From assembly GCF_014642835.1 (NCBI RefSeq), contig NZ_BMJA01000003.1, forward strand, positions 15,682 through 79,681: a stretch of DNA of 64,000 nt, given 5' to 3'. Position numbers and translations under genes: made by a program. Under the pieces are notes generated by a model. The model searched no databases and was not told the DNA's origin. It saw only the letters and a list, made by a program, of their open reading frames with translations. Positions within the stretch are counted from its first letter, which is position 1, and each line of letters begins with the position of its first letter. This DNA is from Dyella nitratireducens. Lineage in GTDB: Bacteria; Pseudomonadota; Gammaproteobacteria; Xanthomonadales; Rhodanobacteraceae. This document shows positions 3,591 to 57,316 of this stretch, piece by piece.

Positions 3591-3675
3591 CGGTTCTTGC
3601 TTTCGAGTAGTACGTGCCTTGCGGCTTCGCCGACATTAACGGCCGGTGTGGCGAGGTCGCTTCGTGACGGCGTGC

Positions 3676-9564: not shown

Positions 9565-9672
9565 GGGCTTGGGGGGTGAGCGGACCTGCCCTCCCCTCCT
9601 CGTCGATCATCAGAAGCACAGACAAGCGCAACGTTTGTTCCACAACCCGTTCTTTTACGCATAGGCACCACC

Positions 9673-10290: not shown

Positions 10291-10323
10291 GATGGCTTGG
10301 ATCAGAACCTTACGGGGATTGTG

Positions 10324-14733: not shown

Positions 14734-17700
14734 TCATGCAAGCGACAGTTCGCCGCTGGGCGAGTGGCTTCTGATCCTGCGTGAAATTTCGCGCGCCAAT
14801 TTTTCGATATGCGGCGGTTTCACGATCGAGTGATGGCTGCCGCCGATTCTCGCCACGTCCAGGCGGGTGCCGAGCAGGTCGCGCCAACCCGCCGCGAGAT
14901 CCTCGCCCTCGTCCCGGTCCGCGGAGAAGTACGTCACCAGCACGTCGACCGGCGGCGCGTCGTACGCTTCAACGGCATTGGCACCGGCCTGGTAGACCGC
15001 CAGCATTCGTCGCACCAGCGCCATGTCCATGTGCGCCGGCAACAGCGATTCGCGCTGGCACGCCTCGATCATGGCATCGACATCCTTGCGCTCCAGCAGC
15101 GCCATCAACTCGTCGTAAGCGGCATGCTGCCGCGCGTCGACGATGTCCGGATGCAGATCGACAACCCATTGCAGCAATGCGCTGCACGCGTCCAATTCAA
15201 AGATGCGCTCTTCAAAGCTATGTTCTACGCGCCGTTGCGCACGCAGCGAGCGGCTGTTGCCCGTATCGATCATGCCCACGAAGCGCGCGTTTTCGCCGCC
15301 GGCACGCAATTGGTGGGCCATGTCATAGGCGATCATGCCGCCCAGCGACCAACCCGCCAGCTTGTACGGGCCACATGCCTGCACCTGCCGTATCTGCTTG
15401 AGATAACAGGTTGCCATCTCGCGAATGCTCGCATGCGGTGTTTCGCCTGCGGCGATGCCGCTTGCCGCAAGGGCATAGACGGGTTGATTCGCATCCAGAT
15501 GCCGGGCCAGGTCCAACGCGTACTGCACCTCGCCGCCGATGGGATGAATGAGGAACAGCGGCGTCAAATCGCCCTCTTTCCGGATCGGCACCAGGTTCGG
15601 CGAAGAACGATGGCTTGCTGGCACGGCAGGCTCGGCAACGGTGCCGATATCGACATCGGCGATCTTCGACATCAATGCCGCGATGGTCGGCGCTTCGAAC
15701 ACGGTGCGTAGCGGCAGCTCGACGTGCAAGGCGCGCTTTATGCGCGACATCATCTGTGTGGCCAGCAACGACTGTCCGCCCAGTTCGAAAAAGTCATCGA
15801 AGACGCCGACTTTGCCGACACCCAGCACATCCGCCCAGATGTCCGCCATGATCTGTTCGGTCGGCGTGCGCGGCGCGACATAGGTGGCGTCGCTCTGCAT
15901 CTGCATCGGGTCCGGCGCCGGCAGTGCCTTGCGGTCCACTTTGCCGTTCACGGTCAGCGGCAATGCCTTCAGCACGACGAAGGCGGTAGGCAGCATGTAT
16001 TCCGGCAATCGCTGCGACAGGCCCGTGCGACAGGTCGCCGCGATGGTGGAGGCGTCCTGCTCACGCTCCTGCGCGGGCACCACGTAGGCAACCAGCCGTT
16101 TTTCACCCGGCGTGTCTTCGCGCAACATCACCGCGGCCGCTTGCACGTCTGCCAACTCCGACAGTTGCTGTTCGATCTCGCCCAGCTCGATGCGGAAGCC
16201 GCGCAGTTTCACCTGATCGTCGCGGCGGCCCAGGAATTCCAGCTCGCCGTCCGCGCGGTAGCGCACCAGGTCACCGGTTCGGTAGAGGCGTGCACCGGGC
16301 TGGCCGAACGGATCGGCTACGAAGCGTTCTTCGGTGAGTTCCGCGCGCCGCAGATAACCCAACGCCACACCCGCGCCGCCGATGTAGAGTTCGCCCACGC
16401 TGCCAAGCGGCTGCACCTGCATGCATTCGCCCAGCACGTACAACTGAGTGTTGCCGATGGCGCGGCCGATCGGCGCCGCGGTGCCATCGAGCGTGTCCAG
16501 CACTGCCGCATCCGACAGCCGCCACACGCAGCAGCCCACCGTTGTTTCGGTCGGGCCGTATTCGTTGACGAACGTTGCCGCGGGAAGCAGCTTGCCTTTC
16601 CAGCGGCGCAGCGTGGACAGCGTGAGCTGTTCTCCACCCACCACGATGCAATGCGCGGCCGCGCCCGGCACGCCCGCTTCATCCACCGCTACCGCTTCGC
16701 CCAGATAGGACAGCGCTTCCAAATGCGCCGGCGTGATCTTGAACAGCCATGCCGCGCCCGGCGCGAACAATCGCGCCGACAGTTGCGGCAGCGTGCGCTC
16801 GTCATCCGGCAGCAACACGACCGGCTTGCCCACCAGCAACGGCGGCAGCAGCGTGGTCACGGTTGCGTCGAAGCCCAGCGGTGAACTCACCACGGCACCG
16901 GCGATGTCATCGCGCACGTATTCGCGTACGCAGTGCCACACGTAATGAAGCAGCGAACGGTGCGGCACCATCACGCCCTTCGGTTTGCCGGTGGAACCGG
17001 AGGTGTAGATCACGTAAGCCGTGTGGTCCGGCAGCGTGTGGTTCGGCAGATTGTCCTCCGCGTAGCTGTGCAGCAGGTCAGCTTCACCATCGATGCAGAA
17101 TACCGGCACACCCGGCAACACCGGCACGCGATCGCGCACGTGTTGTTGCGTGAGCATTGCGGCGGGCCCGGCATCGTCCAGGATCATCGCCAGCCGTTCC
17201 GGCGGATACGCCGGATCCAGCGGCACGTAGGCGCCGCCCGCTTTAAGGATGCCGTACAGCGCAATCATCATGTCGACGCCGCGTTCCATGCATAGGCCGA
17301 CCCGTGCACCGGGGCCGACGCCAAGCTGGCGTAAATGGTGCGCGAGGCGATTGGCACGCGCGTTGAGCTGTGCATAGCTCAGCGATATGTCCGCGTGAAT
17401 CACGGCCACGTCATGCGGCGTACGCACCACTTGCGCCTCGAAGCACTGGTGCAAGGTCTGCGGCTGCCCGGGATAGGCAGTGGCCGTATCGTTGAGCGTG
17501 CGCAGTTGATGATCGCGTTCGGCCGCGCTCAGCATCGCCAGCTTGCCGACCGCACAGCGCGGATCGGCGACGACCGCTTGCAACAGGCGCGTGAAATGAT
17601 CGGCCATGCGCTCCATCGTGCGCCGCTCGAACAGGTCGGTGCTGTATTCGAGATGGCCTCTGAGGCCGTCCCTGCCCTCCATCAGGCTCAGCGTCAGGTC

Positions 17701-20700
17701 GAACTTGGTGGTGGCGCTTTCATGGTCCAGCAGCTGCATGGACAGGCCCGGCAGCGCCAATTCGCCCATCGGTGCGTTTTGCAGTACCAGCATCACCTGG
17801 AACAAGGGCGTATAGCTCGCATGCCGTTCCGGCTGAAGCACGTCCACCAGTTGTTCGAACGGGACGTCCTGATGCGCATAGGCATCCAGCGTGTGCTGGC
17901 GCACCTGCTGCAACAGCGTGTTGAAGTCCTGCGTCAGGTCGACCTGCGTGCGCAGCACCAGCGTATTGACGAAGAAGCCGATCAGGTCTTCGATGTCGCC
18001 GTGGTTGCGGTTGGCGATGGGCGTACCGATGCAGATATCCGTTTGCCCCGTATAACGCGCGAGCAGAACGTTGAAGGCCGCGCACAAGGTCATGAACAGG
18101 CTGCCATGGGATTTCCTGCTCAACGCCTTCAGCTTGTCGCTCAGTTCCGCCGGCACCGCCAACGTCAGCGAAGCGCCGCTGCGGCCTTGTACGGACGGAC
18201 GCGGTCGGTCGGTCGGCAACGCCAGCAATGCCGGGCTGCCCGCCAGTTGCCGCTTCCAGTAATCCAGTTGCTGCGCCAGCACCTCCCCGCCCAGCCACTG
18301 CCGCTGCCAGCTGGCGAAATCGACGTAGCGCATGGGTAGCTGCGGCAATGCCAGCGGCAAGCCACGCGCATGATGCGCATAGAACGCGGCGACTTCCCGC
18401 ATCAGGATGCCCATCGACCAGCCATCCGACACGATGTGATGCATGGTCAGCAGCAACAGGTGTTCTTGCGCATCACATTGCACGAGCGCGCCGCGTACCA
18501 ACGGCGGGGTCTGCAGATCGAACGGCGTGCGTGTTTCGTCGACGATCAGCGCCTTCGCCGCGGCGTCGCGTGCAGGCTTCGCCATGTGGCGCAAGTCGTG
18601 ATGCGCCAGCGGCCATGCCATGCGCGGCAGGATGCGCTGCATCGGCGCGCCATCCACGCTTTCGAAGCAGGCACGCAGCACGTCGTGTCGCTGCACGACG
18701 TCGTTGAGTGCACGCTCCAGGGCGTCACGATGCAGTTCGCCTTTCAGTCGTAGGGTCACCGGCATGTTGTACGCGGCGTTCTGGCCTTCGAACTGATCCA
18801 GCAGCCACAGCCGCTGTTGCGCGAGCGACAGCGGAAAGGTTTCGCCCGCCGGCACTGGCGTTTGCGGCGGGGTTTCGTCTTCCGTGCTTGCCGGCACGAC
18901 ATGGTGGACCATCTCGATCAAGCTTGGCGCATCGAAAATCGCATGCAGCGATACGCGCACCTGGAACACCGTGGCGATCCGCGATACCAGTTGCGTCGCC
19001 AGCAGCGAATGGCCGCCGAGTTCGAAGAAATCGTCGTGGATGCCGATGCGGTCCAGCTTGAGCACGTCTGCCCAGATCGCCGCCATCCGCTGCTCGTCCG
19101 GTGTACGCGGGGCAATGAATGCCCTGCTGCTTTGCGTGAGGTCGGGTGCCGGCAACGCCTTGCGGTCGATCTTGCCGTTCGGCGTCAATGGCATGGCATC
19201 CAGCGTCATGAAGTGGCTGGGCAGCATGTAGTCAGGCAGTTTCCGCGACAGCAGCGTTCGCAGCTCCGCCTCATCCGGCAACGTCTGCGCGTCGTGCGCC
19301 ACGAGATAGGCAACCAGGCGCGCGATGTTCCGCTCGTCCGTTCGCGCCAGCACGACCACGTCGCGCACGCCTTCCATCGCCGCGAGGGACGCTTCGATTT
19401 CCCCCAATTCGATGCGCAGGCCGCGAATCTTTACCTGATGATCGCTGCGGCCCAGATACTCGATGCTGCCGTCCGGCAAATAACGCGCCAGATCGCCGGA
19501 GCGGTACATGCGCGCACCGGGCACGGCGCTGAACGGATTCGGGATGAAACTCTGCGCGGTCAGCGCGGGGCGATGGACGTAACCACGCGCCAAACCCACG
19601 CCCGCGATGTACAGATGACCGACCACACCCACCGGCACCGGATGGAGCGCGTCATCCAGGATATGGATCTGGATGTTCGCAATCGGCCGTCCGATCGGCA
19701 CGCATGCCAGTGCGCGGTCGTTGCGGCATTCCCACGCGGTGACATCGACCGACGCCTCGGTCGGGCCATACAGGTTATGCAAGGCGAGGTGCGGCCAACG
19801 TGCGAAGAAGCGCTGCTGCAACTCCAGCGGCAAGGCTTGCCCGCTGCACATCACCTGGCGCAAGGAGCGGCCACATTCGCCGGCCTCGTTGAGAAACACG
19901 TCCAGCATCGGCGGCACGAAATGCAGCGTCGTGATCGATTGCGCATCGATCAGCTCGGCCAGGTACGTCACATCCTGGTGGCCACCCGGACGCGCCACCA
20001 CCAAGGTGGCGCCTTCGAGCAGCGGCCAGAAAAACTCCCACACCGACACGTCGAAACTGAAAGGCGTTTTCTGCAGCACACGGTCCGACGCCGTTAGCGG
20101 ATAGGCGTCCTGCATCCATTGCAGGCGATTGACGATGCCTTGGTGATCGATGCCTACGCCTTTGGGCCTGCCGGTGGAACCGGAGGTATAGATCACATAC
20201 GCCAGGTGATCGGGCTGCACGTGATGGTCGAGATCGTCTGTGTCGTAGCGCGCCAAGGTGGATGCGTCGCCGTCCAGCGCGACGACGCACACGCCCGGCA
20301 TGCTCGGCACCCGTTCTCGCAGGTGTTGTTGGGTCAGTACTACGCTGAGCTCGGCGTCCTCCACGATGGCGGCAAGGCGGTCCGTTGGATAGCCCGGCTC
20401 CAGCGGCACATAGGCGCCGCCCGCCTTCAGGATGCCGTACAGCCCTACGATCATCTCCAGCGAACGCTCTACGCACAGGCCGACCGGACTGTCCGGGCCC
20501 ACGCCCAGCGTGCGCAGATGCCGCGCGAGGCGGTTGGCTTGCGCATTGAGCTCGGCGTAGCTCAACGACATGTCTTCGTAGATCAGCGCGACGCGCTCCG
20601 GTGTCCGCGCAACCTGCGCTTCAAACAACTGCTGCAAGGTATGCGCGCCAGGACGCACTCCCGGATAGGCCTTGGCGGTGTCGTTGAAGCCGTAGAGCAG

Positions 20701-23700
20701 TTGTTGACGCTCGGCATCGCCCAGCATGTTCAGCTCGCCGACCGCGCAAGCCGGATCAGCGACGATCGCCTGCAGCAGGCGCGTGAAGTGATCCGCCATG
20801 CGTTCGATGGTGTGCCGCTCGAACAGGTCGGTGCTGTATTCGAAGTAGCCGTGCAGGCCGTCCTCATGTTCGGTCAGGCACAGCGTCAGGTCGAACTTGG
20901 CGGTGGCGATGTCGTTGTCCAGCAATGCCATCGACAAACCCGGCAACGCCAGCGCATCCATCGGCGTGTTCTGCAGCACCAGCATCACCTGGAACAGCGG
21001 CGTGTAGCTGGTGTGGCGTTCCGGCTGCAGGGCTTCGACCAGTTGCTCGAATGGCACGTCCTGGTGCGCATACGCTTCCAGCGTGTGTTGGTGCACCTGC
21101 TGCAACAGTGTGTGGAAATCCTGCGTCAGGTCGACCTGCGTGCGCAGCACCAGCGTGTTCACGAAAAAGCCGATCAGTCCTTCGATGTCCTTGCGGTTGC
21201 GATTGGCGATCGGGGTGCCGATACAGATGTCGTGCTGCCCGGCATAGCGCGCCAGCAGCACATTGAACGCGGCCGCCAGGGTCATGAACAGCGTGCTTTG
21301 CGTCGCCCTGCCCAGCGCTTGCAGTGGCGCTACCAATGTGGATGGCAACATCCATGGCAGCGTGGCGCCGGCATGGCTCATGCATGCCGGCCGCGGATGA
21401 TCGGTCGGCAGGGTAAGCAGCGTCGGGCTATCGGCCAGTTGCTGCTTCCAGTAGCGCAGCTGCTGCTCGAGCACCTCGCCGCTCAGCCAGTGCCGCTGCC
21501 AGTGGGCGAAGTCCGCGTACTGGATCGGCAGGCTGGCCAACGGCGAAGGCTCACCTTGCAGGAAGGCGTTGTACAGCGCGGCTACTTCCCGCACCACCAC
21601 GCCCATCGACCAGCCGTCCGACACGATGTGATGCATGGTCAGCAGCAGGATGTGTTCCCGTTCGGCCAGGCGGACCAGGCTGAAGCGGACCAGCGGGCCG
21701 GTGGTGAGATCGAAGGGCCGGTTCGCCTCGTCCTGCATGCGCAGGCGCGCCCGCGCTTCGCGCTCCTCGCCAGGCAGCTCGCTGAGGTCGACGATCGCCA
21801 TCGACAGCCATGCATGCGGCGCAATCACCTGTACCGGTTCACCGTCATGTAGCGCAAAGGTGGTGCGCAATGCCTCATGGCGCTGCACGATCTCATTGAG
21901 TGCGCGCGACAGCGCGTCGGCATCCAGATCGCCCGCCAGGCGAATCGCCGCCGGGATGTTGTAGATCGTGCGCCGTACTTCGAACTGGTCGAGGAACCAC
22001 AAGCGTTGTTGCGCGAATGACAACGGCAACGGTCGATCCCGTTCGATGCACGGAATGGGCGCGATGGCCGGCACGCCTTCACCTTGGCCGGCGCGCACCG
22101 CCAGCTCGGCCAAGGTGGGCGTCTCGAAGATCGCGCGCAACGGCAGATCGGTCTCGAACGACGCGCAGATGCGCGACAGCAACTGCGTCGCCAGCAGCGA
22201 ATGGCCGCCAAGTTCGAAGAAGTTGTCGTGAATACCGATGTGCTCGCGTTTCAGCACCTCGCTCCAGATACCGGCCATTTTCTGTTCGTCGTCATTGCGC
22301 GGCGCTACGTAAGCGGCATCGGCGCGCGTCGTGTCCGGCACAGGCAACGCCTTGCGGTTGATCTTGCCGTTCGGTGTCAGCGGCATGCGGTCGAGCGTGA
22401 CGAAATGGGCGGGCACCATGTAGTCGGGCAGTTCGCGCGACAGCAGCGCACGCAATGTGGGCACATCAGGCACGCCCTGCCCTTCATGCGGCACCAGATA
22501 GGCGACCAGTTGCTTGTCGCCGGCATCGTCCTGCCGCACCAGCACGGTGGTTTCGCGAATCGCCGGCAAGACTTGCAGCTTGGCCTCGATCTCGCCGAGT
22601 TCGATGCGAAAGCCGCGAATCTTCACCTGGAAATCGCTGCGCCCCAGGAACTCGATGGTGCCGTCGGGCAGATAGCGTCCCAGGTCGCCGGTTTTGTACA
22701 GGCGGGCGTGCGCATGGCCGGGCGGCGCGAACGGATCGGCAATGAATCGCTCGTGCGTCAACGCGGGCAGATGGATGTATCCGAGCGCGACGCCGGCACC
22801 GCCGATATAAAGTTCGCCCGCAACACCGATCGGCACCGGCTGCAGGTTGCGGTCCAGCAGGTAGATGCAGGTTCTGCCGATTGGACGTCCAATTGGAATG
22901 CTTCGGCCCGGCAACACCTGCGTGATGTCGTAGGTGGCCGCGAAAGTCGTCGTTTCGGTGGGGCCGTAGCCATTGATCAGACGCTGCGGCGGATGGTTCT
23001 GCAACACCTGGCCGATGATGTGCGGATCGAGCACGTCGCCACCCACCAGCAGCGCACGCAAATGGGTCAGCGCATCGCCAAGCGCTTGCGCGTACTGATT
23101 GAACAAGCCCACCGTCATCCACATGCACGTGATGCCCCGTGCGCGGATCAGCGCGGCCAACCGGCCTGGCTGCATCAGGTCGTCCTGACCGACGATCACG
23201 ATGGCGGCGCCATTCTGCAGCGGCCCCCAGATTTCCAGTGTGCTGGCGTCGAACGCCGGATTCGCCGCACAGGCGAAGCGGTCGTCGGTTTGCAGATCGA
23301 GATAGCCGTTGGCGATGGCAAGGCGCTCGATCGCGCGATGCGGAATCTGCACACCCTTGGCGCGTCCGGTCGAACCGGAGGTGTACATGATGTACGCGCA
23401 AGCCTCGCCATCGATGGTGGCGGCGGGATTGTGCGCCGGCTGCCGCGCCAATGCTTCGCGTGTCGTGGGCTGATCGAGCGTCACGCTTTCGTAGCCATCG
23501 GGCACGGCGACATCACTGTGCGTAATGATGCAACGCGCGCCACAATCCTCAAGCATGTGCATTTGCCGCTCGATGGGCAGCACCGCATCCAGCGGCACGT
23601 AGGCCGCGCCGGCCTTGACCACCGCCAGCTCCGCGACGACCAGGTCCACGCTGCGTGGCAACGCCACCGCAATGGCATCACCGTCTTGCACGCCGCGTGC

Positions 23701-26700
23701 GCGAAGCAGATGTGCCAGCTGATTGGCGCGGCGATTGAGTTGCTCGTAACTGCAAGCCTGCTCGCCATCGAGCACGGCTGGCGCTGCGGGCGTTTGCGCA
23801 GCCCATTGCTCGAAGCGGCGGTGAATGCATAGCGATGCCGGTGTCTGCACGGGATAAACGGACGCGGCGTCGTTGAAGCCGTAGAGCAGTTGTTGACGCT
23901 CGGCGTCGCCCAGCATGTTCAGCTCGCCGATCGCGCAAGCCGGATCAGCGACGATTGCCAGCAGCAGACGCGTGAAGTGATCCGCCATCCGTTCGATGGT
24001 GTGCCGCTCGAACAGGTCGGTGCTGTATTCGAAGTAACCGTGCAGGCCGTCCTCATGCTCGGTGAGGCACAACGTCAGGTCGAACTTGGCGGTGGCGATG
24101 TCGTTGTCCAGCAAGGCCATCGACAAACCCGGCAACGCCAGCGCATCCATCGGCGTGTTCTGCAACACCAGCATCACCTGGAATAGCGGCGTGTAGCTGG
24201 TGTGGCGTTCCGGCTGCAGTGCTTCGACCAGTTGCTCGAATGGCACGTCCTGGTGCGCATACGCTTCCAGCGTATGTTGGTGCACCTGCTGCAACAGTGT
24301 GTGGAAATCCTGCGTCAGGTCGACCTGCGTACGCAGCACCAGCGTGTTCACGAAAAAGCCGATCAGTCCTTCGATGTCCTTGCGGTTGCGATTGGCGATC
24401 GGGGTGCCGATACAGATGTCGTGTTGCCCGGCATAGCGGGCCAGCAGCACATTGAACGCGGCCGTCAGGGTCATGAACAACGTGCTTTGCGTCGTCCTGC
24501 CCAGCGCCTGCAGCGGTACCACCAAGCTGGCGGGCAAGCTCCATGGCAGCGTGGCGCCGGCGTGGCTCAAGCGTGCCGGCCGCGGGTGATCGGTGGGCAG
24601 GGTGAGCAGCGTCGGGCTATCGGCCAGTTGCTGCTTCCAGTAGCGCAACTGCTGCGCGAGCACCTCGCCGCTCAGCCAGTGCCGCTGCCAGTGGGCGAAG
24701 TCCGCGTACTGGATCGGCAGGCTGGCCAACGGCGACGGTTCACCCTGCAGGAAGGCGCCGTACAGCGCAGCCACTTCGCGTACCACCACGCTCATCGACC
24801 AGCCGTCCGACACGATGTGATGCATGGTCAGCAGCAGGATGTGTTCCCGTTCGGCCAGGCGGACCAGGCTGAAGCGGACCAGCGGGCCGGTGGTTAGATC
24901 GAAGGGCCGGTTCGCCTCGTCCTGCATGCGCAGGCGCGCCCGCGCTTCGCGCTCCTCGCCAGGCAGCTCGCTGAGGTCGACGATCGCCATCGACAGCCAT
25001 GCGTGCGGCGCAATCACCTGCACCGGTTCGCCGTCATGCAGCGCGAAGGTGGTGCGCAATGCTTCATGCCGGCGCACGATGTCGTTGAGCGTTTTCGCCA
25101 ATGCATCGACGTCGAGCCGGCCGCTCAGGCAGACTGCCGCCGGGATGTTGTAGATGGCGCGCTGCGCTTCGAACTGGTCGAGGAACCACAAGCGTTGCTG
25201 CGCGAACGACAGCGGCAACGGCTGGTCGCGCGGCGCCAGTGGTATCGCCTCCAGGTTCGGCGTCACCGATGCCGTACCGAGCGCTTCGATGCGTGCCAGC
25301 AGCGCCTTCACGGTGGGCGCTTCGAAGATGCTTTGCACTGGCAGGTCGATGCCGAATTCGGCGCGGATTCGCGAAACCAGTTGCGTAGCGAGCAGGGAAT
25401 CGCCACCGAGTTCAAAGAAATGGTCGTGGCTTTCCACGGATGGACGGCCAAACAATTCCCGCCACATCGCCGTGAGCGCGTCGATACGGCTGACGACCTG
25501 CGTCGCGCCCTGTTCCGCCGATGCCGCGGCAGGCAGTTCGTGCCGGGCGAATGCGTGAGCGACGGCAAACTCCGGGGCATCCGGATAAGGCACGTCGGTC
25601 CAGTAGCGTTCCCGCGCAAACGGATAGGTGGGCAGGCTGATGCGGCGCGGACGCGCGTTCGCATACAGCGCATTCCAATCGATGCCCAGGCCCTTCACCC
25701 ACAGGTCCAGCAGCTTGCCGAACTTGCCCTTGGCGACCCACGCCTGGACCATCGCGGCCAGATCCTCGTCGCCCGACAGCATCGACAAGGCGCCACGCTT
25801 GCCATGACCGCGATGGATGCCTTCCATGTCTTCATCGCCCGCGACGAACGCCGTCAACTTCCGTTGCAGATCGTCCAGCGAATCGGCCAGCAGGGCCAGT
25901 CGCTCCTCCATCGCTTCACGGCCAACCTGCAGGGTGTACGCGATATTCGCCAGCGTCAGGTCAGCGCCGGCATGTGGCGAAGCGATCGCCGCCAGCAGCC
26001 GTCGTGCCTGCTCTTGCAAGCGCTCCGCATTGCGTGCGGACAGTACGATCATCGCCGGGTTTTGCGCGGGCTCATCCAGACTCGGAGGCGCCACGTATTC
26101 CTCGATCACCACATGCGCGTTCGCGCCACCCGCGCCGAACGAAGAAACGCCCGCGATGCGCGGCACTTCGCGTTGTTCGCCATCCGCACCTACCATCGGG
26201 CGCGGCCAGTGCGCCAGGCTCTGCTGCAACACGAATGGCGTGTCGGCGAATTTGATATGCGGATTGGGCGTGCCCGCATGCAGCGTAGGCGCCAGCGTTT
26301 GATGCTTCATCTGCATCAGCACCTTGCTGATGGCGACGAAGCCGCTTGCGCTTTCGCTGTGGCCCACGTTCGACTTGTGCGAACCAATGGCGCAGAACTG
26401 CCGGTCCTGCGTCCAGTGGCGGAACGCCTTGGTCAGGCCTGCGATTTCGATCGGATCACCCAGGCTGCTGCCGGTGCCTTGCGCTTCCACGTAACTCACG
26501 CAGCGCGCATCGATGCCGGCGCGCTGTAGCGCATCGCTCACCACCTGCGCCTGCAAGTTGGGGTTGGGCGTCATGTAGCTGGTGGTCTTTCCACCTGCGT
26601 TGATCGCGCTGCCCTTGATCACGCCATAGATATGGTCACCATCAGCCACCGCGCGATGCAGCGGTTTGAGCACGAGCGCACCCACCGCTTCGCTGTCCAC

Positions 26701-35700: not shown

Positions 35701-38700
35701 CGTGATGTCATGCGCTTGCGCCGCGTTCGCAGGCAACGCTTTCCATACCGGCGCAGCCAATAACATCCGGTCGAGCGATGCGGTCAGGTGGCGCGCGGTC
35801 GATGCGTGCAAGACCAGCCGCTCGATGCGCGCGCAAAGCTTGCCGGCGCCGTCGCATACATCGATATCGAATTGCCGCGCCGCACTGTCAGGCGATTCAA
35901 GCTGGCGCACCCACGCCCACGCCGTGGCGGGACACGTGGCCAGCACGTCCAGCACACCCAGGCTAGCGGGCACCCACAACGTGTCTGCACGCGAGGCGTC
36001 GCCTTGCACGATGCCGAGCGCCGCTTGCAGCGCCGCATCGAGCAAAACGGGATGCAAGGCGTAGTCGTGCTGTGCATCCTGTAGCGCAGCAGGTATGGCG
36101 ATGTGGGCGAGCACTTCGCCGTGGCCGACCAGCAATGCCTGCACGCCCTGGAATGTCGCGCCATAGTGCAGCCCCATGCGCTCGAACAAGGCATAGCATT
36201 GCCGCGCATCCAGTCGTTCCACATCGCATTGCGCCCGCAGCCGGCTGAGGTCGTGAACGCCTGGTGTCGCAGCGTGTGCGACAAGCGTCGCGCTGCCACG
36301 GCTGTAGACGGTGTCTTCATCTGCGCCATGCAGTTCGAATGCGACCACCTCATCGTCCTGCGGCGTCAGGCGGAGATGCACGTCGATACCGCCGTCGCCT
36401 GCCATCGCCGGGCGCAGCCACGCCACGTCATGCAGGCGCAGGGCAACCGCTTCGCCGATGGACACCTCGACGGCGCGGCGCGCCATTTCCAGTTGCACGG
36501 CGGCGGGCAGCACGAGTGCACCGTGCACGCGATGGTCAGCGAGGAAATAGTCCTCGCCCGTGAAGTGCGAACTGAAACGCTGCGCGGCAAAGGTGGAGGT
36601 ATTGCGATGCAGGAGCGGATGCATGACGCCCGCGCCCACCGTCACCGCCGGGCCGATGGGCATCCAGTAGCGCTCGCGTGCAAACGGATAAGTCGGCAGG
36701 CTGATCCGGCGCGGGTGGCGTCCTGTTGCATACAGGCGGCGCCAATCCAACGACAGCCCGTTGACCCACAGCTCCAGCAGCCTGCCGAACTGCCGTTTCG
36801 CGATCCAGGTATCGATCATCGCATCGAGGCCGTCGTCGCCGGCGAGATTCAGCAGCGTGTCCTGCTCTAGTCTGACCTGCCCGTGATACAAACCGTCGAT
36901 TGCCGTGTGGCCGGCCACATAGGCGGCCAGTTTTTCGCGCAGTTCATCCAGCGAGTGCACCAACAAACCGAGGCGCTCGTCCATCGCTTCGCGGCCGACC
37001 TGCAGCGTATAGGCGAGATCGTGCAGCACAGGCTCCACATCCGTGTCGAGCGCGGTCAAAAGCCGCTTCGCATGTTCCAGCAGGCGATCGGCCGTGCGCG
37101 CGGAAAGCACCACCAGCGCAGGCCCGTGCCACGCATGCGCGGCTTCGATCGGCGCGCGATATTCCTCAATCACCACGTGCGCATTGGCGCCACCCGCGCC
37201 GAATGAGGAAACGCCGGCAAGCCGTGGGCATTCGCGCCTGACGCCATCTTGCTCCAGCACTGGCCGCTGCCATGGCGAAAGCGTCTGCTGCACCACGAAC
37301 GGCGTCTGCGCAAAATCGATGTTCGGATTGAGCACCTCCGAATGCAGGCTGGGTGCAAGCTGTCCGTGCTTGAGTTGCAGCAGCACCTTGGTGACGCCAG
37401 CAATGCCGGCGGCACTTTCGCAATGACCGATGTTCGACTTGGCCGAACCGATGGCGCAGAACTGCGTGTCTTGCGTCCAGTGGCGGAAGGCTTTGGACAA
37501 GCCGGCGATCTCGATCGGATCGCCCAGGCTGGTACCGGTGCCGTGCGCCTCGATGTAGCTCACCGCGCGTGCGTCGATGCGCGCGTCACGCAGCGCGCGC
37601 TCGATCACCTTCGCTTGCGCATGCGGATTGGGTACGGTGAAACCGTTGGTCTTGCCACCGTGATTGATGGCCGTCGCCTTGACCACGCCATAGATGTGAT
37701 CGCCATCGGCCTGCGCCTGCACGAGTGGTTTTAGCAACACCGCGCCGACACCCTCGCCCGGCACATAGCCTTCGCCGCCTTCGCCGAAACTTTCGCAGCG
37801 CCCTTTGCCGGAAATGAACCGGCCCTGCGCCAGCATCAGGTATTTGTTGGGATGCACCGACACGTTCACGCCACCGGCGATCGCCACCAAACAGCCGCCT
37901 TGGCGCAGCGCCTGGCAGGCCAGGTGAATGGCCGTCAGCGACGAGGAGCACATCGTGTCCAGCATCAGGCTGGGGCCGTGGAAGTTGTAGAAATACGAAA
38001 CGCGGTTGGCGATGGACGCGGGACTTCCCGGCACGGCGATAGGCCGGCCGAGCGCCTGCTCTTGCGCGGCGAACATTCGGTATTCCTCGTACATCACGCC
38101 GACGAACACGCCGACGTCGCCATGCTCGGCGACGTTCTCGCGCGTATAGCCGGCATCCTCCAGCGTGGCATGCACGCACTCCAGGAACAGACGCTCCTGC
38201 GGGTCCATCAATTCCGCTTCGCGCGGCGAGATGTTGAAGAACAACGGATCGAACCGGTCCACGCCGTCGATGAAACCGCCCCACTTGCCGTAGCACTTGC
38301 CCGGCTTGCCGTGTTCCTCGTCGAAATAACGGGCGTGGTTCCAGCGCTCCGGCGGAATCTCCGTGATGCTGTCGCGCCCCTGGCTCAGGTTGTTCCAGAA
38401 CTGCTCAAGGTCCATCGCCTGCGGGTAGCGGCCGGCCAGGCCGATGATCGCGATATCGCCCAGATCATCGTTCGCATCGTGGCGACGAACCGGTGTTGCG
38501 TAACGCGCCTGCATGGCAAGCGCGGATGGCGCGTGTGCCGTTTTTTGCGCAGATGGCGTCGCGGCGGCTTCGGCGATGGCACGCGGTTCGCCCAGCAGGG
38601 CCCTCATCGTTTCGCGATGGTGCTGCACGAAATAGCCGCTCAGCGCGGCTAGGGTCTGATATTCGAAGAACAGCGTCTTCGGCAACGGGCCGAATTGCCG

Positions 38701-41700
38701 TTCGAGAGCGCGCGTCAGTTCCAGCACCATGATGGAATCGATGCCGTAGGCTTCCAGTTGCGCCTGCGGTTGGATCTTGTGCGCCGGGGTTTTCAAGGTG
38801 GCGGACAGGAAGCGCACGAAATGGCGGATGGCGCGTTCGTGCATGTCGTCTGCAACGTCGGTTTCCGCTGCAAGTGGCGCGTCGAGCACGGGTACATCAT
38901 CGGCCATGCGAACGCGATCGCCGGCTGGCGCATGATCCAATACGCGCATGCCAAGCTGCCGGAAGCGCAGGCACACCCTGCCCTGCTCGTTGCACACGTC
39001 GATGTCCACGATGCGCACCGCGTCGCTGTGCGTGCCGTTGCTGCGCACCACCACCCATGCCTGATCCGTGCAGGGCGCCAGCACGTCCAGGCGTTGCAGC
39101 GCGAACGGCAGCATCAATGCAGGCTCGCGTCCCGCGCCGATGTCCAGGCCGATCGCTGCCTGCCACGCGGCATCGAGCAAACTGGGATGCAGTACGTAGC
39201 GATCGCTGTCCGCTCGTTGCGACGCCGGCAACGCGATCTGCGCGAGCGCCATGCCGTCACCCGCGAACAGGGCCAGCAGACCCTGGAAGCCCGCGCCATA
39301 GTGCAGCCCCAGACGATCGAACGTGTCGTAGCACGCGGCGGCGTTCCAATGAGCTCGCGTGCATTGTTCGCGCAGCGCAAGCAAGTCGTGCATCGCAGGT
39401 TCGGACGATGCGAGCGTTTCCGTCACCACGCCACGGCTGTAGACAGCGATCTCGCCGTCCACAGGGTCCGCATGCAGTTCGTAGGCAATGTCGCCGCGTC
39501 CGTCCACGCGCAGCGATACGTGCAGTTGCACGCCTTGCTCGCTGGTCAGCACCGGGCGTTCCCACACGATGTCTTGCAGATGCAGCGGCGAGGTCGCATC
39601 CAGCACGGCGCTTGCCGCGGCGCGCGCCATTTCCAGCTGTGCCACGCCCGGCAGCACGCGCTTATCGCGTACGACGTGGTCGGCGAACACGAATTCGCGG
39701 CCGTCGAAACGGCTGCTGAAACGTGGGCCAAGCAGGTTCGACGTATTCCGATGCAGCAAGGGATGCAGCGTGGCGACGTTGGATGCCGCCGGCAGATTGG
39801 CACCGCCGGCCTCGATCCAATAGCGCTCCTGCGCAAACGGATAGGTCGGCAGGCTGACACGGCGCGGCCTGCGTTCGCCGTGCAGCGCCGCCCAATCCAC
39901 GCGGCGGCCATCCACCCACTGCGCAAGGATGCGCGTCCATTGTCCTTGTGCGGCCTCGTCGCGCAATGTGGCGTCCGCATCGTCGCGCACGGACGATGCG
40001 GCAAGCTTTTCGCGGCGCGCCTGTCCGCGATGCAAACCGGCGACGTCGGCATCGCCAGCCACGAAGCGCGTCAGCAGATCGCGCAGTGCTTCGTGTGTGC
40101 GCACGCTGACGCCAAGCCGCTCCTCCATGCCTTCGCGACCCACCTGCAAGGTGTAGGCGATGTCGTCCAGCGTGAGGTCGCGCGCTGCCGGCGTGTCGAG
40201 AAAGTCGATCCATTGGCGCGCCTGCTCGCGCAAGCGTTCCTCGTTGCGCGCGGAGAGTACGAACGCCACCCGCTTTTCTGATGGTGCGGCTGCGGCCGGG
40301 GCGACGTATTCCTCCAGCACGACGTGCGCATTGACGCCGCCGAAGCCGAACGAACTCACGCCCGCGCGACGCGGCAGCGCTTCGCCGTGCGCGTCGCGAA
40401 AGGGCAGCCATTCGCGTGTTTCGTTCACGACGTAGAACGGGCTGCTATCCAACTGGATATACGGATTGATCCGTTCGCCATGCAGGCTCTTCACCAGTGT
40501 GCGGTGCTTCATCTGCAACAGCACTTTCACCACGCCCGCGACGCCAGCCGCCAATTCCAGATGGCCGATGTTGGTTTTCACCGAGCCCAGGCCGCAGTGC
40601 GGCGCCGGCACGACTTGGTCGCCGGTGGCGGCGTAAAGCGCCTGGAAGGCGGTTTTCAGGCCATTGATCTCCACCGGATCGCCGAGCGGCGTGCCGGTGC
40701 CGTGTGCTTCGATATAGCTCACCGTGCGCGGATCGATGCCGGCCTGCGCGTAGGCGCGCCGCACGACGTCCGCCTGCGCATTTGGATTGGGTGCGGTCAG
40801 CGAGTTCGCGCGGCCGCCATGGTTTTCCGATACGCCGCGCACCACGCCGTAAATGTGGTCGCCGTCGCGCTCGGCGTCGGCGAGTTTCTTCAGCACCAGC
40901 ATCGCCACGCCTTCGCCGCGCACGTAGCCGTTCGCGTCGGCGGAGAAGGTTTTGCAGCGGCCGTCTTCGCTCAGCATGCCGGCCTTGGTGAAACTGATGT
41001 GCAGATCGGGCGTGATCAAGGTGTTTACGCCGCCAACGATCGCCATCGACGATTCGCCGCCCTGGATCGCCGCAACGCCACGGCGCAATGCCACCAGCGA
41101 ACTGGAGCAGGCGGTTTCCACCGGCTCGCTCGGCCCGTGCAGATCAAGGAAATAACTCATGCGGTTCGGCCCCACCGAGGCCACCGCGCCGGTTGACGAA
41201 TAGCCCTCGATCGCCGTCATCGCACGTGCGATCAAGCTGCTGTAGCCGGTACCCATGGTACCGACGAAAATCGCCGTATCGCTGCCGGCCAGCGCCGGAC
41301 CCGCATAGCCCGCATCTTCCAGCGCTTTCCAGATGTAGATCATCATCAGGCGCTGTTGCGGATCCATCAGTTCCGCTTCTTTCGGCGAGATGCCGAAGAA
41401 CAGTGGATCGAATTCATCCACGCCGTCGATAAAGCCGCCCCATTTGATGTGCGTGCGATTGGCCTCGCGCGCGGGATCGCCATGCCATGCGCGCCAGTCC
41501 CAGCGCGACGCTGGAATTTCGCTGATGCAATCGCGGCCTTCCAGCAGATTGCGCCAGAACGCATCCAGGTCAGGTGCCTGTGGGAACTGACCGCTCATGC
41601 CAATGATGGCGATGGGTTCGCTCGTGGCCGTGATGTCCGGCGCTGGCTTGCTGCTGCGGCTCCATCCACGTGCGCGTGCGCGTTCCTGCGTGTGCGCGGC

Positions 41701-44700
41701 AGGCTGCACGGGCGTGGTCGCCTCGAACGCGACACTGTGCTCGCGCACCAGGTAAGCAGCCAGGCCGTCGATCGTCGGGTATTCGAAGAACAATGTCGGC
41801 TGCAGTTCCAGTTTGTAGCGCTGGTTGATGGCGTTGCCGAATTCCGTCAGCGAGACCGAATCGAAACCGTATTCGCTGAATGCGGTTTCGCCGTCGATGT
41901 CTGCGGGTTTGACTTTGATCAGGGAGGACACGAGTTCGATCAGTGTCTGCTTAACCTGATCCAAGACTCCCTCCCCTGCATGCAGGGGAGGGTTGGGGTG
42001 GGGTTGTGTGGGCTTGCCGTTCGATCTGAACTCATCGCGAGGTTGCTGTTGCTTCAGCCCATCCCGCGCCCTCCTGCTTGCAGGAGCAGAAGGCAAAATA
42101 TGTTCCCCTAATACACGCAAGGGAGGAAGCAAGAGCGCCTCACGAATCCGCTCAGCATCCCCCGCCACCACCATCGCCTGCGTTTCGCCACTGGCCCAGA
42201 TCTCGTACAGCGCCGCCAGACCATCGGCCGTGCGCAACGGCTGCATGCCCCACTGCCGCGCCAGCATCGTGCGCGTTGGCGCATCCACCTGCATGCCGCC
42301 TTCCTCCCACAGGGGCCAGTTCACCGACAACGTGCGGCCATGCCGGCGTCCTTGCGCCGCCAGCGCGTTGCGCCGATGCACGAACGCATCCATGAATGCG
42401 TTGGCTGCCGCGTAATCCGCCTGGCCGGCGTTGCCGATGGCGCCGGCGATGGACGAGAACACGATGAAAGCATCCAGCGCGATGCCGCGGCTGGCTTCGT
42501 CCAGGTGCAGCGTGCCGTGCACCTTGGCGCTGAACACCTCGTGCAATTGCGCGGGGGTCTTTCTGGCGAGATAACTGTCGCGCAGCACACCGGCGCTGTG
42601 GATGATGCCGTCCAGGCTTTCGAATTCTTCGGGAATGCCCTGCACCAATGCCGTTACCGCCTGTGCGTCGCTGACGTCCACGGCGCGATAGCGAACCACC
42701 GCGCCCAGTGTTTCCAGTTCGCGGACGTGCGCTTGAATGCCGGCATGCATCGGAGTGCGTCCGGTCAGAATCAGCACCGGGTTGCGTACCTGTGTGGCGA
42801 TGTCGCGCGCAAAGACCAGACCCAGGCCACCGGCCCCGCCGGTGATCAGGTAGACGCCGTGCGCTTTCCACGGACTTGCGGCTGCAGCCGGCGCCGCAAA
42901 GGTTTCCCAGCCTGCTACGTAGCGCGAGCCCATGACGTAGCGCACGCGGACGGCTTCGTCATCGCGGTTGTCGAGCAATAACTGCGCCACATCCTGGCCG
43001 TGCTCAATGTCGATCACTTGCCCGCGCAACCGCGGATGCTCGCGTTGCGCCGTACGCAACATGCCGTGCAGGCCGGCGAAAAGTTGCGCCTCGCCCTCGG
43101 CCGGCACCGCGATCTGCATGAAAGCCTGCCCCGTTTCACAACTGAGCGATTGGAGCTGCTCCAACAAGGCGCCAGCAACAGCTTCGTAGCTGCCGGCAAG
43201 ATCGGGCGTGACGTCAATCGTGGAGACGATCGCGCCGGGCACGCGCACGCCGACGTCGGCAGCATGAATATTCGGCAAGCCACACAGCAGCACGCGATGC
43301 GCAGCCGGCGCAGCATTCGCGGCGGCTGAAGGCGCAACAGCCGTCCACATGGGGCGCATCAGCAAGGTCTCGCCGTCCGGCACGATGGCGGGAAGCGTTT
43401 CGTGCGCCGGGATGCCCACCGCGCGCAGCTCCAATTGCCGCAGCTGCACGCATACCGCACCGCTTTCGTCGCACAGGTCGATATCCAGGCGCTGCTCGCC
43501 AGCGTCGCTGCTGCGTATGAAAGCCCACATGCTCGCGGTGCACGGCGCGAGCACGTCCATGCCGCCGAGGGCAAACGGCAACCTCAGCGATGCTTGCGAG
43601 TTCAACAGCAACGTCGCCTGCAACGCTGCATCCATCACGCTCGGATGCAGCGCGTAGTCGTCGCGCGTGACTTGCGCTGACGCCGGCAGGGCGATGCGCG
43701 CCAGCAATGCACCATCGCCGATGAACGCCTCGGCCAGGCCACGGAAGGATGGACCGTAGTGCAGCCCCAGGGATTCGAAACGCGCGTAGCATTCCGCCGC
43801 TTCGACGTGCGCCACCGAACACTGCTTCCGCAGTGCGGCCAGATCGTACGTCGTCGCGACAGCTGCCGCCTGGACAGCCACCACGCCACGGCTGTGGACG
43901 ATGACCGCGCCATCGTCATCCTGGCGATAGATCTCGGCATCGAGATCGCCATCATCACGCGGCTTCAACGCCAGGTGCAGGTTCACGCCGCCGGCATCGA
44001 CGCGGATCGCACGAAGCCAGGCCATGTGTTTCCACCGCAGCGGTTCGCCAGCATCGAACGCCTGCTCTGCGGCATGGCGCAGCATCTCCAGTTGCGCCAC
44101 GCCGGGCAGCACCCGATGGCCCTGCACAACATGGTCGGCGAGAAAAAATTCTTCGCCGCTGAAGTGCGAACTGAAACGCAACCCGTCGACGTTGGAGCTG
44201 TTCCGGTGCACCAGCGGATGCGGCACGGTCGTCGCTATCCCCACATCACGCGCCGTTTCGCTGACCGCAATCCAATAACGATCGCGCGAAAACGGATAGG
44301 TGGGAAGGCTGATGCGCCGCGGCCGCGGCCCCGCCGCATACAGGCGCTGCCAATCGAACGACACACCCTTCGTCCACAGATCGAGCAGCTTGCCGTGCTT
44401 GCCCTTGGCCAGCCACGCTTCGACGATGGCCGGCAGGTCGTCATCGCCGCTGAGCGCGGTGAGCGCTTCCTTGTTGCGCTTCACCTGCCCCCTGTAAAGC
44501 CCGTCGATGACTGCTTCGCCAGCGAGATAATCGCGAAGCTTTTCGCGCAGTGGGTCGAGCGAATGCGCGATGATGCCCAGCCGCTCTTCCATCGCCTCGC
44601 GTCCGAACTGCAGCGTGTAGGCGAGATCGGCCAACACGATCCGTTCCCCTTCGGCATCGAGCAAGGCCAGCAGGCGCTGTACCTGCTCGCGCAGGCGGTC

Positions 44701-47700
44701 TTCCTGCCGCGCGGACAACACGATCAGCGCGGGACCGTCCAGCGCGGCCGTGCCGGATGCAGACTCGCGATATTCCTCGATCACCACGTGCGCATTGGCG
44801 CCACCGGCGCCGAACGAGGAGATGCCGGCGATGCGCGGGTACTCGCGTTTTACACCGTCGACGTCAAGCACCGGCCGCGGCCATGGCGATAATGTCTGCT
44901 GCACCACGAACGGTGTCTGCGCAAAATCGATGTTCGGATTGAGTACGTGCGAATGCAGGCTCGGCGCAAGCTGCCCGTGCTTGAGTTGCAGCAGCACCTT
45001 GGTGACCCCAGCAATGCCGGCGGCGCTTTCACAATGGCCGATATTCGACTTGGCCGAACCGATCGCGCAGAACTGTGTGTCTTGCGTCCAGTGGCGGAAG
45101 GCTTTGGACAAACCGGCAATCTCGATCGGATCGCCCAGGCTGGTGCCGGTGCCGTGCGCTTCCACGTAGCTGATGGCACGCGCGTCGATGCCGGCCTCGC
45201 GCAGCGAGCGTTCGATCACCTTCGCCTGCGCATGCGGGCTGGGCACGGTGTAACCGTTGGTCTTGCCGCCATGATTGATGGCCGTCGCCTTGACCACGCC
45301 ATAGATGTGATCGCCGTCGGCCTGCGCCTGGGCAAGCGGTTTTAGCAATACGGCGCCGACGCCCTCGCCCGGTACGTAGCCTTCGCCGCCTTCGCCGAAA
45401 CTTTCGCAGCGCCCTTTGCCGGATATGAACCGGCCCTGCGCCAGCATCAGGTATTTGTTCGGGTGGATCGACACGTTCACGCCACCGGCCACCGCCACCG
45501 CGCAACCGCCGTGCTGCAGGCTTTGGCAGGCCAGATGAATCGCCGTCAGCGACGAGGAGCACATCGTGTCCAGCGCCAGGCTGGGACCGTGGAAATTGCA
45601 GAAATAGGAAATGCGATTGGCAACCGAAGCCGCGCTGTTGAGCATGGAAAGGTTGTTGCCCCGGGCTTGCTCCTGCGCGCCATAGAGCTGATATTCCTCG
45701 TACATCACGCCGACGAAGACACCCACGTCGCCACCCTCGGCGACGTTCTCGCGCGTGTAGCCGGCGTCTTCCAGCGTGGCGTGCACGCACTCCAGGAACA
45801 ACCGCTCTTGCGGGTCCATCAATTCCGCTTCGCGCGGCGAGATGTTGAAGAACAGCGGATCGAACTGATCCACACCGTCGATAAAGCCGCCCCATTTGCC
45901 ATACGTCTTGCCGGGCTTGCTACGGTCTTCGTCGAAGTAGCGCCGGTAATCCCAGCGTTCGGCGGGAATTTCGGTGATGCTGTCGCGCCCCTGGCTCAGG
46001 TTGACCCAGAACTGTTCGAGATCGTTGGCCTGCGGATAACGCCCGGCGACGCCGATGATGGCGATGTCGCCAACGTCCTGGCGATGGTTCGCCACGCCCT
46101 GCAGGCCGGTTTCCATGCGTGTCCCGAAGCGCGGACGTCGATGCAGGCCTGCCGTGGCGGGTGGTGCAGTGTCGTCGTTGCGTGGCGACATGCTCGATGA
46201 GTCGTGCACGGCTTCGCCAAGTGCTGCAACGAGGCGCTCACGATGGTTTTCCACGAAGTACGCCGCCAGTGCGGCAATGGTCTGGTATTCGAACAGCAGC
46301 GTCTTGGAGAGCGTGCCGAAGACCTGTTCCAGTGTGCGCGTCAGATCCATCACGAGGATGGAATCGATGCCATAAGCTTCCATCGGCGCACGCGCATCAA
46401 TGCTGTTCGGCGAACGCTTGAGCGTGCCGGACAACAGCCGGACGAAATAGCGTGTGGCCTTCTCCTGCAGCTCGCTGGATGGCGCGCTTGCCGCCGGTTC
46501 GGGCCTGGCTGGCGCGGCGTCGATTTTTTTGGTGTTGAGCAGGCTGGATGTGAAACGTTCGATGGCCCCCTCGGCCACCATCACCTGCGGCAGGCCGCTG
46601 GCCAGCGCGCTCGCCAGCGCCGCGCAACCGCTGGCCGTGCGCAGCGGCAGCAAACCGGTACGCCGTGCGATATCTTCGCGCGTGGCGGCATCCACCTGCA
46701 TGCCGCCCTCCTCCCACAGCGGCCAGTCCACCGACAGCGTGCGCCCGTGGCGCAGGCCTTGCGCCACCTGTTCGGCGCGATGATGCGCAAACGCATCCAT
46801 GAACGCATTCGCCGCCGCGTAATCGGCCTGGCCAATATTGCCGAGCGCACCGGACGTGGACGCGAAACATACGAAGCAATCGAGTGCCATGTCGCGCGTG
46901 GCTTCATCCAGATGCAAGGTGCCAGCCACCTTGGCGTGCAGCACGTCGTGCAATTGCTGGCGGGTCTTGTTGATGATCAGGCTGTCACGCAGCACGCCCG
47001 CCGCATGGATCACACCGTGCAGGCTGCCGAACGCATCGGCCATGCCACGCACGAGCTGCAACACTGCATCGCGATCGCCCACGTCGAGCTGCCGGTAGTG
47101 CGGTCTTGTGCCGAGCGCTTCGAGTTCGTCGAGCTTGCCGCGTGTGGCTTCGGTGAGTGCCGAGCGTCCGGTGAGAATGAGCGTTGCGCCGCTGGCCTGG
47201 CGCGCGATCTCACGGGCAAAGATCAGACCCAGTCCGCCTGCGCCACCAGTAATGAGATACGTGCCGTGCGCCTTCCACAGCGGTGCGGCATCGAAAGATG
47301 ACGGGAGTTCCTTCCAGCGACCCATCTGGCGCATGCCACCGGCGTAACGGATCTGCGCGGCGGGATTGGCGCGATTCTCCAGCAATGCCTGCACCACGTT
47401 TTGACCGGCCTCGACGCCGATCACCTGGCCGACGATGCGCGGATTTTCCTGTTGCGCCGTGCGCAGCATGCCGCCAAGGCCGGCCATGGTCTGGTCGATG
47501 CCATGGCTGGGCACGACGACCTGGATCAGATGGCGGCCCGCCTGCGCGCTCAAGGATTGAATCTGCTCCAGCAACACGCCAGCAGCCGATTCGTAGCGCT
47601 GCGCCAGCGCGTCGCCCGTGCTGATCTCGATGCACGCCGCATGCGGTAAACCCGCCTGCACGTCGGCGGATATCGCACGAAGATTGTCCTGCCCACCGCA

Positions 47701-50538: not shown

Positions 50539-50636
50539 ACATGTCCTGTAGCGTGTTCTTTCGGATTCCGCGTCAAACGACTTCGCCCGCATCCTGCGAT
50601 GTAATTTTTAAAAACAGCCGACCTCCGCGGCCGCGA

Positions 50637-54041: not shown

Positions 54042-54088
54042 GCTCGACACATGACACACGCAACACGAACCATGATTCCACGTTGAAA

Positions 54089-54250
54089 TCACGCCACTAC
54101 CGGTGCATTGATCGTCCAATGCATGCATGGCGGACAGTGGAAACATCCGCCACAGGCGCAACCAAGCCTATGCATGACCTCCATCATCAGTGCGGACAGC
54201 AAAAAACAATCGGCGATCACTGCGCACGAAAAACAAATCGCGCACAGCAT
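54089..54250 (-). CDS. Possible 53-aa cysteine-rich peptide
   Basis: A frame between mbtH and the AT gene encodes a hydrophobic N-terminal half with Leu, Met and Cys residues and a C-terminal half dense in cysteines (CACGGCFHCPPC). Nine or more of 53 residues are Cys. There is no good ribosome site in front of the ATG at 54250 and no family I recognise. It may be a chance frame in non-coding DNA; it is reported because the Cys pattern and the position inside the operon are unusual. Confidence 0.2.
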   Translation of the reverse strand: MLCAICFSCAVIADCFLLSALMMEVMHRLGCACGGCFHCPPCMHWTINAPVVA

Positions 54251-54287: not shown

Positions 54288-54500
54288 CTAGCCAGAATGT
54301 GTACGCGCCTGTAACGAACCTGGGCGCATGTCGGTCCACACCTCTTCAATGAACGCCAGGCAGAGCTCTTTTGACCCCTGCTTTCCCGTCATGGACCAAC
54401 CCTTTGGCACGATCTTATTTATCGGCCAGATCGAATATTGCCCTTCCTGATTGATGACGACTGCATAATCGGTTTCTTGCTGACTCGATCCGCTGGACAT
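54288..54500 (-). CDS. MbtH-like NRPS accessory protein
   Basis: A 70-residue MbtH-like protein that binds adenylation domains and aids their folding and activity. The family signature is nearly complete: NQEGQYSIWP (17-26), VPKGW (31-35), and WTDMRPGSL (55-63). A strong GAGAGGG precedes the ATG at 54500. The usual N-terminal NPFDD is replaced by a short polar segment. It is the first gene of the biosynthetic unit and should serve the three adenylation domains of the giant synthetase. Confidence 0.93.
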   Translation of the reverse strand: MSSGSSQQETDYAVVINQEGQYSIWPINKIVPKGWSMTGKQGSKELCLAFIEEVWTDMRPGSLQARTHSG

Positions 54501-57250: not shown

Positions 57251-57316
57251 GGCGTTATATTCCTGGGATCGAAGAGATTTAACGGCATGACATCGTAGTT
57301 CCGGCCATCAAACGAA

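Follow-up and report, generated by a model that had tools for sequence, protein, structure and literature searches.

A trans-acyltransferase PKS-NRPS assembly line encoded as one chain in Dyella nitratireducens and related bacteria

Bacterial assembly lines that join polyketide synthase (PKS) and nonribosomal peptide synthetase (NRPS) modules and are served by acyltransferases (AT) acting in trans are the closest described systems to the one reported here, and we take bacillaene, rhizoxin and difficidin to be of the kind to which it is best likened. The subject of this report is a giant open reading frame (ORF) on the minus strand of a 64,000-nucleotide stretch of Dyella nitratireducens DNA (the window; positions 15682-79681 of contig 3 in a 5.68-Mb assembly of 14 contigs, 99.97% complete). 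Its product, hereafter the giant, shares with those lines AT-free modules, an AT and an enoyl reductase (ER) supplied in trans, modules of the ketosynthase-dehydratase-acyl carrier protein (KS-DH-ACP) and ketosynthase-ketoreductase-ACP (KS-KR-ACP) types, KSs with a RhiE-like linker and, before the NRPS part, a KS lacking the His of HGTGT, but it holds the whole line in one polypeptide. Modules 3 and 6 match residues 10-1001 of the KS-DH-ACP-KS protein in Protein Data Bank (PDB) entry 7zma (“Putative polyketide synthase”) almost end to end (1,415 and 1,364 bits), although that entry, presumably the core of a bimodule in an orphan trans-AT PKS from Brevibacillus, covers just a short part of a line. 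Mycolactone MlsA1 and kolossin are single bacterial proteins comparable to the giant in size or larger; unlike the giant, MlsA1 is a cis-AT PKS and kolossin a pure NRPS.

One-chain PKSs in the MDa range are also documented in a eukaryotic alga, Chlorella variabilis, in which CvaPKS1/2 reach 1.2 MDa with about 40 domains in 12 modules, and algal multimodular PKSs are said to rely on a trans-acting AT; the available passages of that source describe no end made of three NRPS modules, and the likeness to the giant is by description only (PMC4661987). In the bacterial group studied here, PKS/NRPS hybrid clusters of unknown product are reported for Dyella jiangningensis and D. terrae (PMC6082245, PMC9169046), and a Luteibacter study lists its clusters in a supplement (PMC9965599). 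The available passages of these three papers describe neither a one-chain nor a trans-AT line, and no description of a one-chain trans-AT line in this group was found in the open literature. The giant is an unusual but real and recurring trans-AT PKS-NRPS architecture, and its family points to a group whose PKS/NRPS clusters are, in the passages just cited, reported as making unknown products.

The ORF spans 50592-14734 and comprises 11,952 codons, with a terminal stop only in the six-frame ORF list and in the translation, and the window is free of any N. A preliminary description of this DNA had proposed a PKS-NRPS in a single frame, PKS/NRPS junction included, of about 1.3 MDa, and this is borne out by the one terminal stop and by a computed mass of 1,298,680 Da (~1.30 MDa). 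Its figure of about 11,930 codons fits a start at the ATG at 50529 (11,931 aa) and not the longest-ORF start at 50592; several relatives begin in MNVxQ, MNAxQ, MSTHQ or the like, and this makes the former the probable true start.

The giant is not a one-off, and one-chain lines that share its first KS make up a family. When the 512 residues encoded by 49000-50535 were searched against 233 genomes of the same bacterial family, 30 genomes matched at E<=1e-120, and 16 (its own included) held the first KS at >=76% identity in 21 copies, of which 15 are complete single frames, four run off contig ends (G087 C164, G178, G116 and G088 C15; G and C numbers are our labels for genomes and contigs) and two have internal frame breaks. 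The complete frames measure 11,952 (window), 13,389, 8,268, 11,506, 10,986, 10,684, 8,697, 10,686, 10,751, 10,680, 10,598, 10,886, 7,982, 7,174 and 7,973 aa. None of the other 14 complete proteins has the domain string of the window; the nearest is that of G104a, with a DH in module 5 and four NRPS modules, and the family ranges from 3 to 7 KSs and from 1 to 4 NRPS modules. Eight lines (G107, G118, G149a, G092, G192, G123, G089 and G093a) have seven KSs and one or two NRPS modules, and their module 6 reads KR, a stretch of about 470-490 aa, ACP, DH and ACP, the stretch holding a methyltransferase in G093a. A separate scan with an 864-residue N-terminal query found Rhodanobacter sp. A1T4, Dyella subtropica, Dyella sp. 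S184 and Dyella silvatica at 69-72% in the best segment, a result that sets the host within or close to Rhodanobacteraceae.

Beyond these genomes, an order-wide draw gave 14 of 398 genomes at E<=1e-200, all in bacterial family f1. A phylum-wide draw gave 5 of 398 at E<=1e-150, its own included, the remaining four being 47-52% identical and having frames of <=6,672 aa, and a class-wide draw with KS7 gave 7 of 369 at E<=1e-140, its own included, with frames of <=6,672 aa in the others; among the matching genomes of the class- and phylum-wide samples, no frame longer than 6,672 aa was found outside the bacterial family. In Eleftheria terrae, which gave the best plasmid match, the region is occupied by two separate genes, each annotated as SDR family oxidoreductase; the 24.6 kb that separate them are geneless in the plasmid table. 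Split PKS lines occur in the same bacterial family too, in G110 and G228, spread over several ORFs with some breaks inside modules and giving no match to the cluster's AT domains. A 10,748-aa frame in G167 was rejected as a member, being a repetitive PKS of another sort that carries AT domains itself (L096-L098: seven KSs in AT-containing repeated units, followed by a separate protein of condensation, adenylation and thiolation domains). On the G104 chromosome (L047-L050) two giants of 13,389 and 8,268 aa lie in tandem, separated by a cytochrome P450, and the tree alignment shows no difference between the first KSs of the two. Contigs of fragmented relatives often end at or in KS domains (L104-L107, L109-L114, L116-L118); homogenised KS repeats may break assemblies, and one-chain lines may be under-counted in drafts.

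The hidden Markov models (HMMs) used to call domains started from those of the window and were built on the matches to them in the 15 giant proteins; Pfam, scanned over residues 1-8000 and over window 14737-25236, agrees where run. The chain contains seven KSs, three condensation-adenylation-thiolation (C-A-T) modules and one thioesterase (TE), and thus has the make-up of a PKS-NRPS hybrid, in which KS modules and C-A-T modules share a single line that ends in a TE. In chain order the features are as follows.

14734..50592, minus strand: single-chain trans-AT PKS-NRPS, longest ORF 11,952 aa, 11,931 aa from the ATG at 50529
46243..50469, minus: module 1, KS-DH-KR-ACP; KS with DTACSSS and EAHGTGT, the family-marker KS1, 76-84% identical in relatives
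41737..46068, minus: module 2, KS-DH-KR-ACP; KS with DTMCSSS, ACP with GFDSV
38617..41616, minus: module 3, KS-DH-ACP, no KR; near full-length match to 7zma residues 10-1001
34237..38457, minus: module 4, KS-DH-KR-ACP
30661..34098, minus: module 5, KS-KR-ACP, no DH; ACP with GFDSV
27526..30534, minus: module 6, KS-DH-ACP, no KR; ACP with GIDSF, 7zma match as in module 3
25300..27351, minus: module 7, KS-T; KS with EAQGTGS, presumed non-elongating
22099..25236, minus: NRPS module 1, C-A-T; A signature DALWLGGTFK, read by eye
18910..22053, minus: NRPS module 2, C-A-T; A signature DVWHMSLVDK, read by eye
15670..18852, minus: NRPS module 3, C-A-T; A signature DATKVGEVGK, read by eye
14758..15525, minus: type I thioesterase

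In window 14737-25236 Pfam gives three Condensation, three AMP-binding, three PP-binding and one Thioesterase domain, and our own domain HMMs found no domain before KS1. The Cys motif is intact in all seven KSs and E[A/T]HGTGT in six, KS3 (EAHGTGT) and KS6 (ETHGTGT) among them; KS7 alone is without the His, and its module is without a DH. KS7 is probably non-elongating (His to Gln), and because its EAQGTGS replaces the HGTGT His the line probably consists of six elongating modules and one transfer module. The earlier module counts stand, but only six of the seven KSs look elongating. Among nine printed proteins, EAQGTGS is found at the NRPS-adjoining KS in all seven that have such a KS, and for this reason it is a conserved feature of the KS next to the NRPS part. 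The three A domains are presumably Val-like (DALWLGGTFK), Ser-like (DVWHMSLVDK) and Asn-like (DATKVGEVGK).

The trans-AT character claimed at the outset holds. The Pfam scans returned no acyltransferase family, a phmmer search with the cluster's two AT domains (E<=1e-5) gave no match in any of the 15 giants, although it did match the cis-AT-like frame of G167, and discrete ATs, two domains together with an ER, are encoded at 50637-54161, immediately upstream of the giant. Pfam places the RhiE-like linker PF22336 in six stretches of residues 1-8000, in keeping with KSs of trans-AT type with a flanking subdomain. The best solved relatives of KS1 are 7zma (best stretch residues 1063-1580) and PksJ, and the closest solved KSs of the giant are 7zma, PksJ and “AT-less” PKSs; 7zma and PksJ we take to be trans-AT KSs. 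On these grounds the giant is classed as a trans-AT PKS-NRPS.

The giant is flanked by four genes of the same direction.

54288..54500, minus: MbtH-like protein, 70 aa, an A-domain partner
50637..54161, minus: AT-AT-ER; residues 43-348 PksD-like, 387-666 DisD-like trans-AT, 703-1146 DfnA/PfaD-like enoyl reductase
13194..14669, minus: cytochrome P450, 491 aa, directly downstream of the giant
11770..13194, minus: MATE-family exporter

In the AT-AT-ER, the first AT matches PksD best, and the second DisD, then PksE and PksC. The description of the frame as the “whole line” applies to the PKS/NRPS junction, which is on the chain, and not to starter loading, AT, ER and MbtH, which are off it. Beside 12 other giant regions, surveyed mostly over just ~7-12 kb upstream of the giants, the P450 and the MATE gene recur in 12 of 12 each, MbtH in 10 and the AT-AT-ER at near full length in 9, with a protein of 812 aa in G075.

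We propose, with a probability of about 0.8, that this five-gene cluster with its one-chain trans-AT PKS-NRPS makes and exports an acyl-tripeptide, and that the family evolves by in-frame change. The analysis itself establishes the frame, the order of the domains, their active-site residues, the separate AT, the recurrence of the cassette and the purifying selection; the substrates, order of chemistry, release, tailoring and export we infer as follows. In the compact cluster (MbtH, AT-AT-ER, giant, P450 and MATE; ~54500-11770, minus strand), KS1 would take up a starter encoded off the chain, and the separate AT would load malonyl onto the six PKS modules that extend the chain. Reduction and dehydration would take place in modules 1, 2 and 4, and module 5 would leave a hydroxyl; modules 3 and 6 have a DH but no KR, and some of the double bonds may be saturated by the separate ER. 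KS7, without its catalytic His, would hand the acyl chain on unextended; the three NRPS modules would add Val-, Ser- and Asn-like residues, the TE would release the product, the P450 would oxidise it and the MATE pump would export it. The product is thus most likely an acyl chain with three residues (Val-, Ser- and Asn-like) at its end, and probably a lipopeptide-like compound. The change seen across the family would be accounted for if repeated KS and C segments were gained, lost and homogenised in frame within one gene.

Several observations weigh against this proposal. Internal frame breaks are present in G175 C3 (in the NRPS part) and in G087 C70. The cassette is not complete everywhere, because the AT-AT-ER occurs as fragments only beside G093b and G088, and MbtH was not found beside G107 and G075. 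In the dehydrating bimodule, a KR in one module is followed by a non-elongating KS and a DH in the next; modules 3 and 6 do not fit this textbook case, since KS3 and KS6 retain the HGTGT His, and the proposed scheme does not account for the beta-keto groups at these two modules.

It could be argued that an ordinary multi-protein trans-AT line only looks fused through errors of assembly or sequencing (lost stops, collapsed or chimeric modules). KS copies are repeats at or in which contigs of fragmented relatives often stop (G116, G088 and G178), and the most similar long inexact repeat of the ORF pairs the C domains of NRPS modules 1 and 2 (93.4% identity over 1,360 bp). Within the ORF, however, no exact direct repeat of >=150 bp is found (repeated words of 100 bp number 11), for which reason a collapsed repeat is unlikely to lie behind the frame, and 14 more complete single frames occur in 11 other genomes, three of which are single-contig assemblies (G104, G107 and G118). 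PKS modules 1-7 are collinear with those of G104a save for the module 5 DH. Five family pairs align end to end over 7,971-10,695 codons at ratios of nonsynonymous to synonymous substitution (dN/dS, by a Nei-Gojobori script) of 0.151, 0.157, 0.159, 0.173 and 0.189, the value for the window pair being rough at a dS of 1.2; because of this a chance origin of the frame can be taken as ruled out, and the low ratios indicate that purifying selection acts along the whole frames. Of the faults that the preliminary description had named as refuting the frame, the six-frame list and the family codon alignments reveal no frameshift and the repeat scan no sign of collapse. An assembly artefact was rejected given the conserved single frames elsewhere and the lack of long exact repeats, and a docked multi-protein line given the absence of internal stops, so that this explanation is hardly credible.

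The proposed acyl-tripeptide pathway has two further competitors, which concern the product. The chain might be translated whole and yet be a remnant with several dead modules, yielding a much shorter product or none. Such decay is suggested by KS7 without its catalytic His, by the KR-less modules 3 and 6 and by the first DH motif of module 3 (HVVRDKRVLP in the translation), in which Gly is replaced by Asp; but the recurrence of EAQGTGS in seven of the nine printed proteins is that of a conserved feature, the same Asp is found in G104a and G093a (not in G107), apart from this no KS, ACP or TE is missing and their motifs are mostly intact, and the frames are under purifying selection, which makes the remnant improbable. 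Alternatively, the genes of window 55033-63731, all in one direction on the minus strand (two GT4 glycosyltransferases, a PhyH protein and a type I secretion set of OEP, HlyD and a C39-like ABC protein), could belong to the pathway, whose product would then be glycosylated and exported by that ABC system. They lie near the giant on the same strand, but both glycosyltransferases, PhyH, OEP and HlyD find no match beside the 12 other giants in the surveyed flanks, where more distant copies could escape notice, and the ABC protein finds one partial match (250 residues at 30%), against 12 of 12 for P450 and MATE. These six genes were accordingly not retained as pathway members, their participation being very improbable.

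The most surprising part is the evolutionary pattern, for which wider sampling is needed. In a tree of 117 KSs, those of the giants fall into four clades (module 1, module 3/6, module 7-type and module 2/4/5-type), with support of 99-100 in the Shimodaira-Hasegawa-like approximate likelihood ratio test; KS1, KS3/6 and KS7 group by position or kind. A DNA tree of 30 KSs (modules 2, 4 and 5 of ten seven-KS lines) joins the three KSs by gene in the window (100/100), G107 (100/100), G104a (100/99) and G123 (96/94), and pairs KS2 with KS4 in G118 (86/98), and clades by position are rejected by the approximately unbiased test (p-AU 2e-151 for module 2, 6e-62 for module 4 and 4e-100 for module 5). 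The DHs of the same modules split module 2 from module 4 (98), and the KRs and ACPs split module 4 from modules 2 and 5 (99 and 100). At third codon positions the window's KS2, KS4 and KS5 are 67-69% identical to one another versus <=64.4% to same-type KSs in other proteins, and the relation is reversed for DH (48 versus up to 52) and KR (<=59 versus up to 67). Shared codon usage was rejected as the cause, the best third-position match being a paralogue in 0 of 29 DHs and 7 of 38 KRs versus 19 of 38 KSs. The shared KS tract falls off near NAHVVIEE (1933, 4470); LPTYPF (2096, 4632) was discarded as its end, as third-position identity between modules 2 and 4 drops ~185-200 codons before it.

A related picture is offered by the NRPS part, in which the C domains of modules 1 and 2 are 93.9% identical and agree at 72-98% of third positions from residue 8519 to about 8900 (>=90% in 13 of 18 overlapping windows), the agreement dropping sharply before the A domain, and in which the module 1 A domain is <=44.5% identical to any other A domain of the 15 proteins. 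The near-identity of the two C domains and the divergence of this A domain would fit the insertion of an A-T-C piece at that place.

The pattern of KS2, KS4 and KS5 looks like concerted evolution. In cis-AT PKSs, concerted evolution and gene conversion are described in which the domains of one cluster group together and not with their positional counterparts (passages of PMC4256081 and, on GRINS, PMC10394414); the difference is that here the KSs of a trans-AT line group by gene. Trans-AT KSs correlate with substrate, two trans-AT clusters show no cluster-specific branching, and GRINS are rarer in trans-AT PKSs, according to passages of PMC4256081, PMC7930024 and PMC10394414. We give about even odds to a scheme in which KS cores (to about NAHVVIEE) are overwritten within a gene while DH, KR and ACP stay, modules are gained and lost in frame without docking partners, and the one-gene layout is the cause, the family then being a natural combinatorial series with cis-AT-like concerted evolution. 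Set against such homogenisation are the facts that all three KSs group by gene in only 4 of the 10 seven-KS lines, those of G149a, G089, G092 and G192 being mostly positional, that modules 2 and 5 are not told apart by KR or ACP, and that the nearest KS lies within the same protein in 19 of 38 cases by third codon positions and in 6 of 38 by protein identity, a weak effect.

If translated whole, the giant would be an entire trans-AT line working without inter-protein docking, and hence a clean system in which to study docking-domain function, and the family presents natural module gains and losses within one gene context. The mutually overwriting KSs would be candidate interchangeable parts, and their pattern would run counter, in a way open to testing, to the described rule by which substrate and not gene governs the grouping of trans-AT KSs.

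Beside the cluster, a gene that is nitroreductase-like from the look of its sequence is present twice (3675-4299 and 9667-10291), 5.4 kb apart. A regulator of GntR/aminotransferase type (MocR-like; 7072-8478, minus strand) lies between the copies, with no match beside the other giants in the surveyed flanks. Together the two copies make up a 625-nt inverted repeat with 92% identity (93.0% over 612 bp by BLASTN), which reads as the scar of a duplication or inversion.
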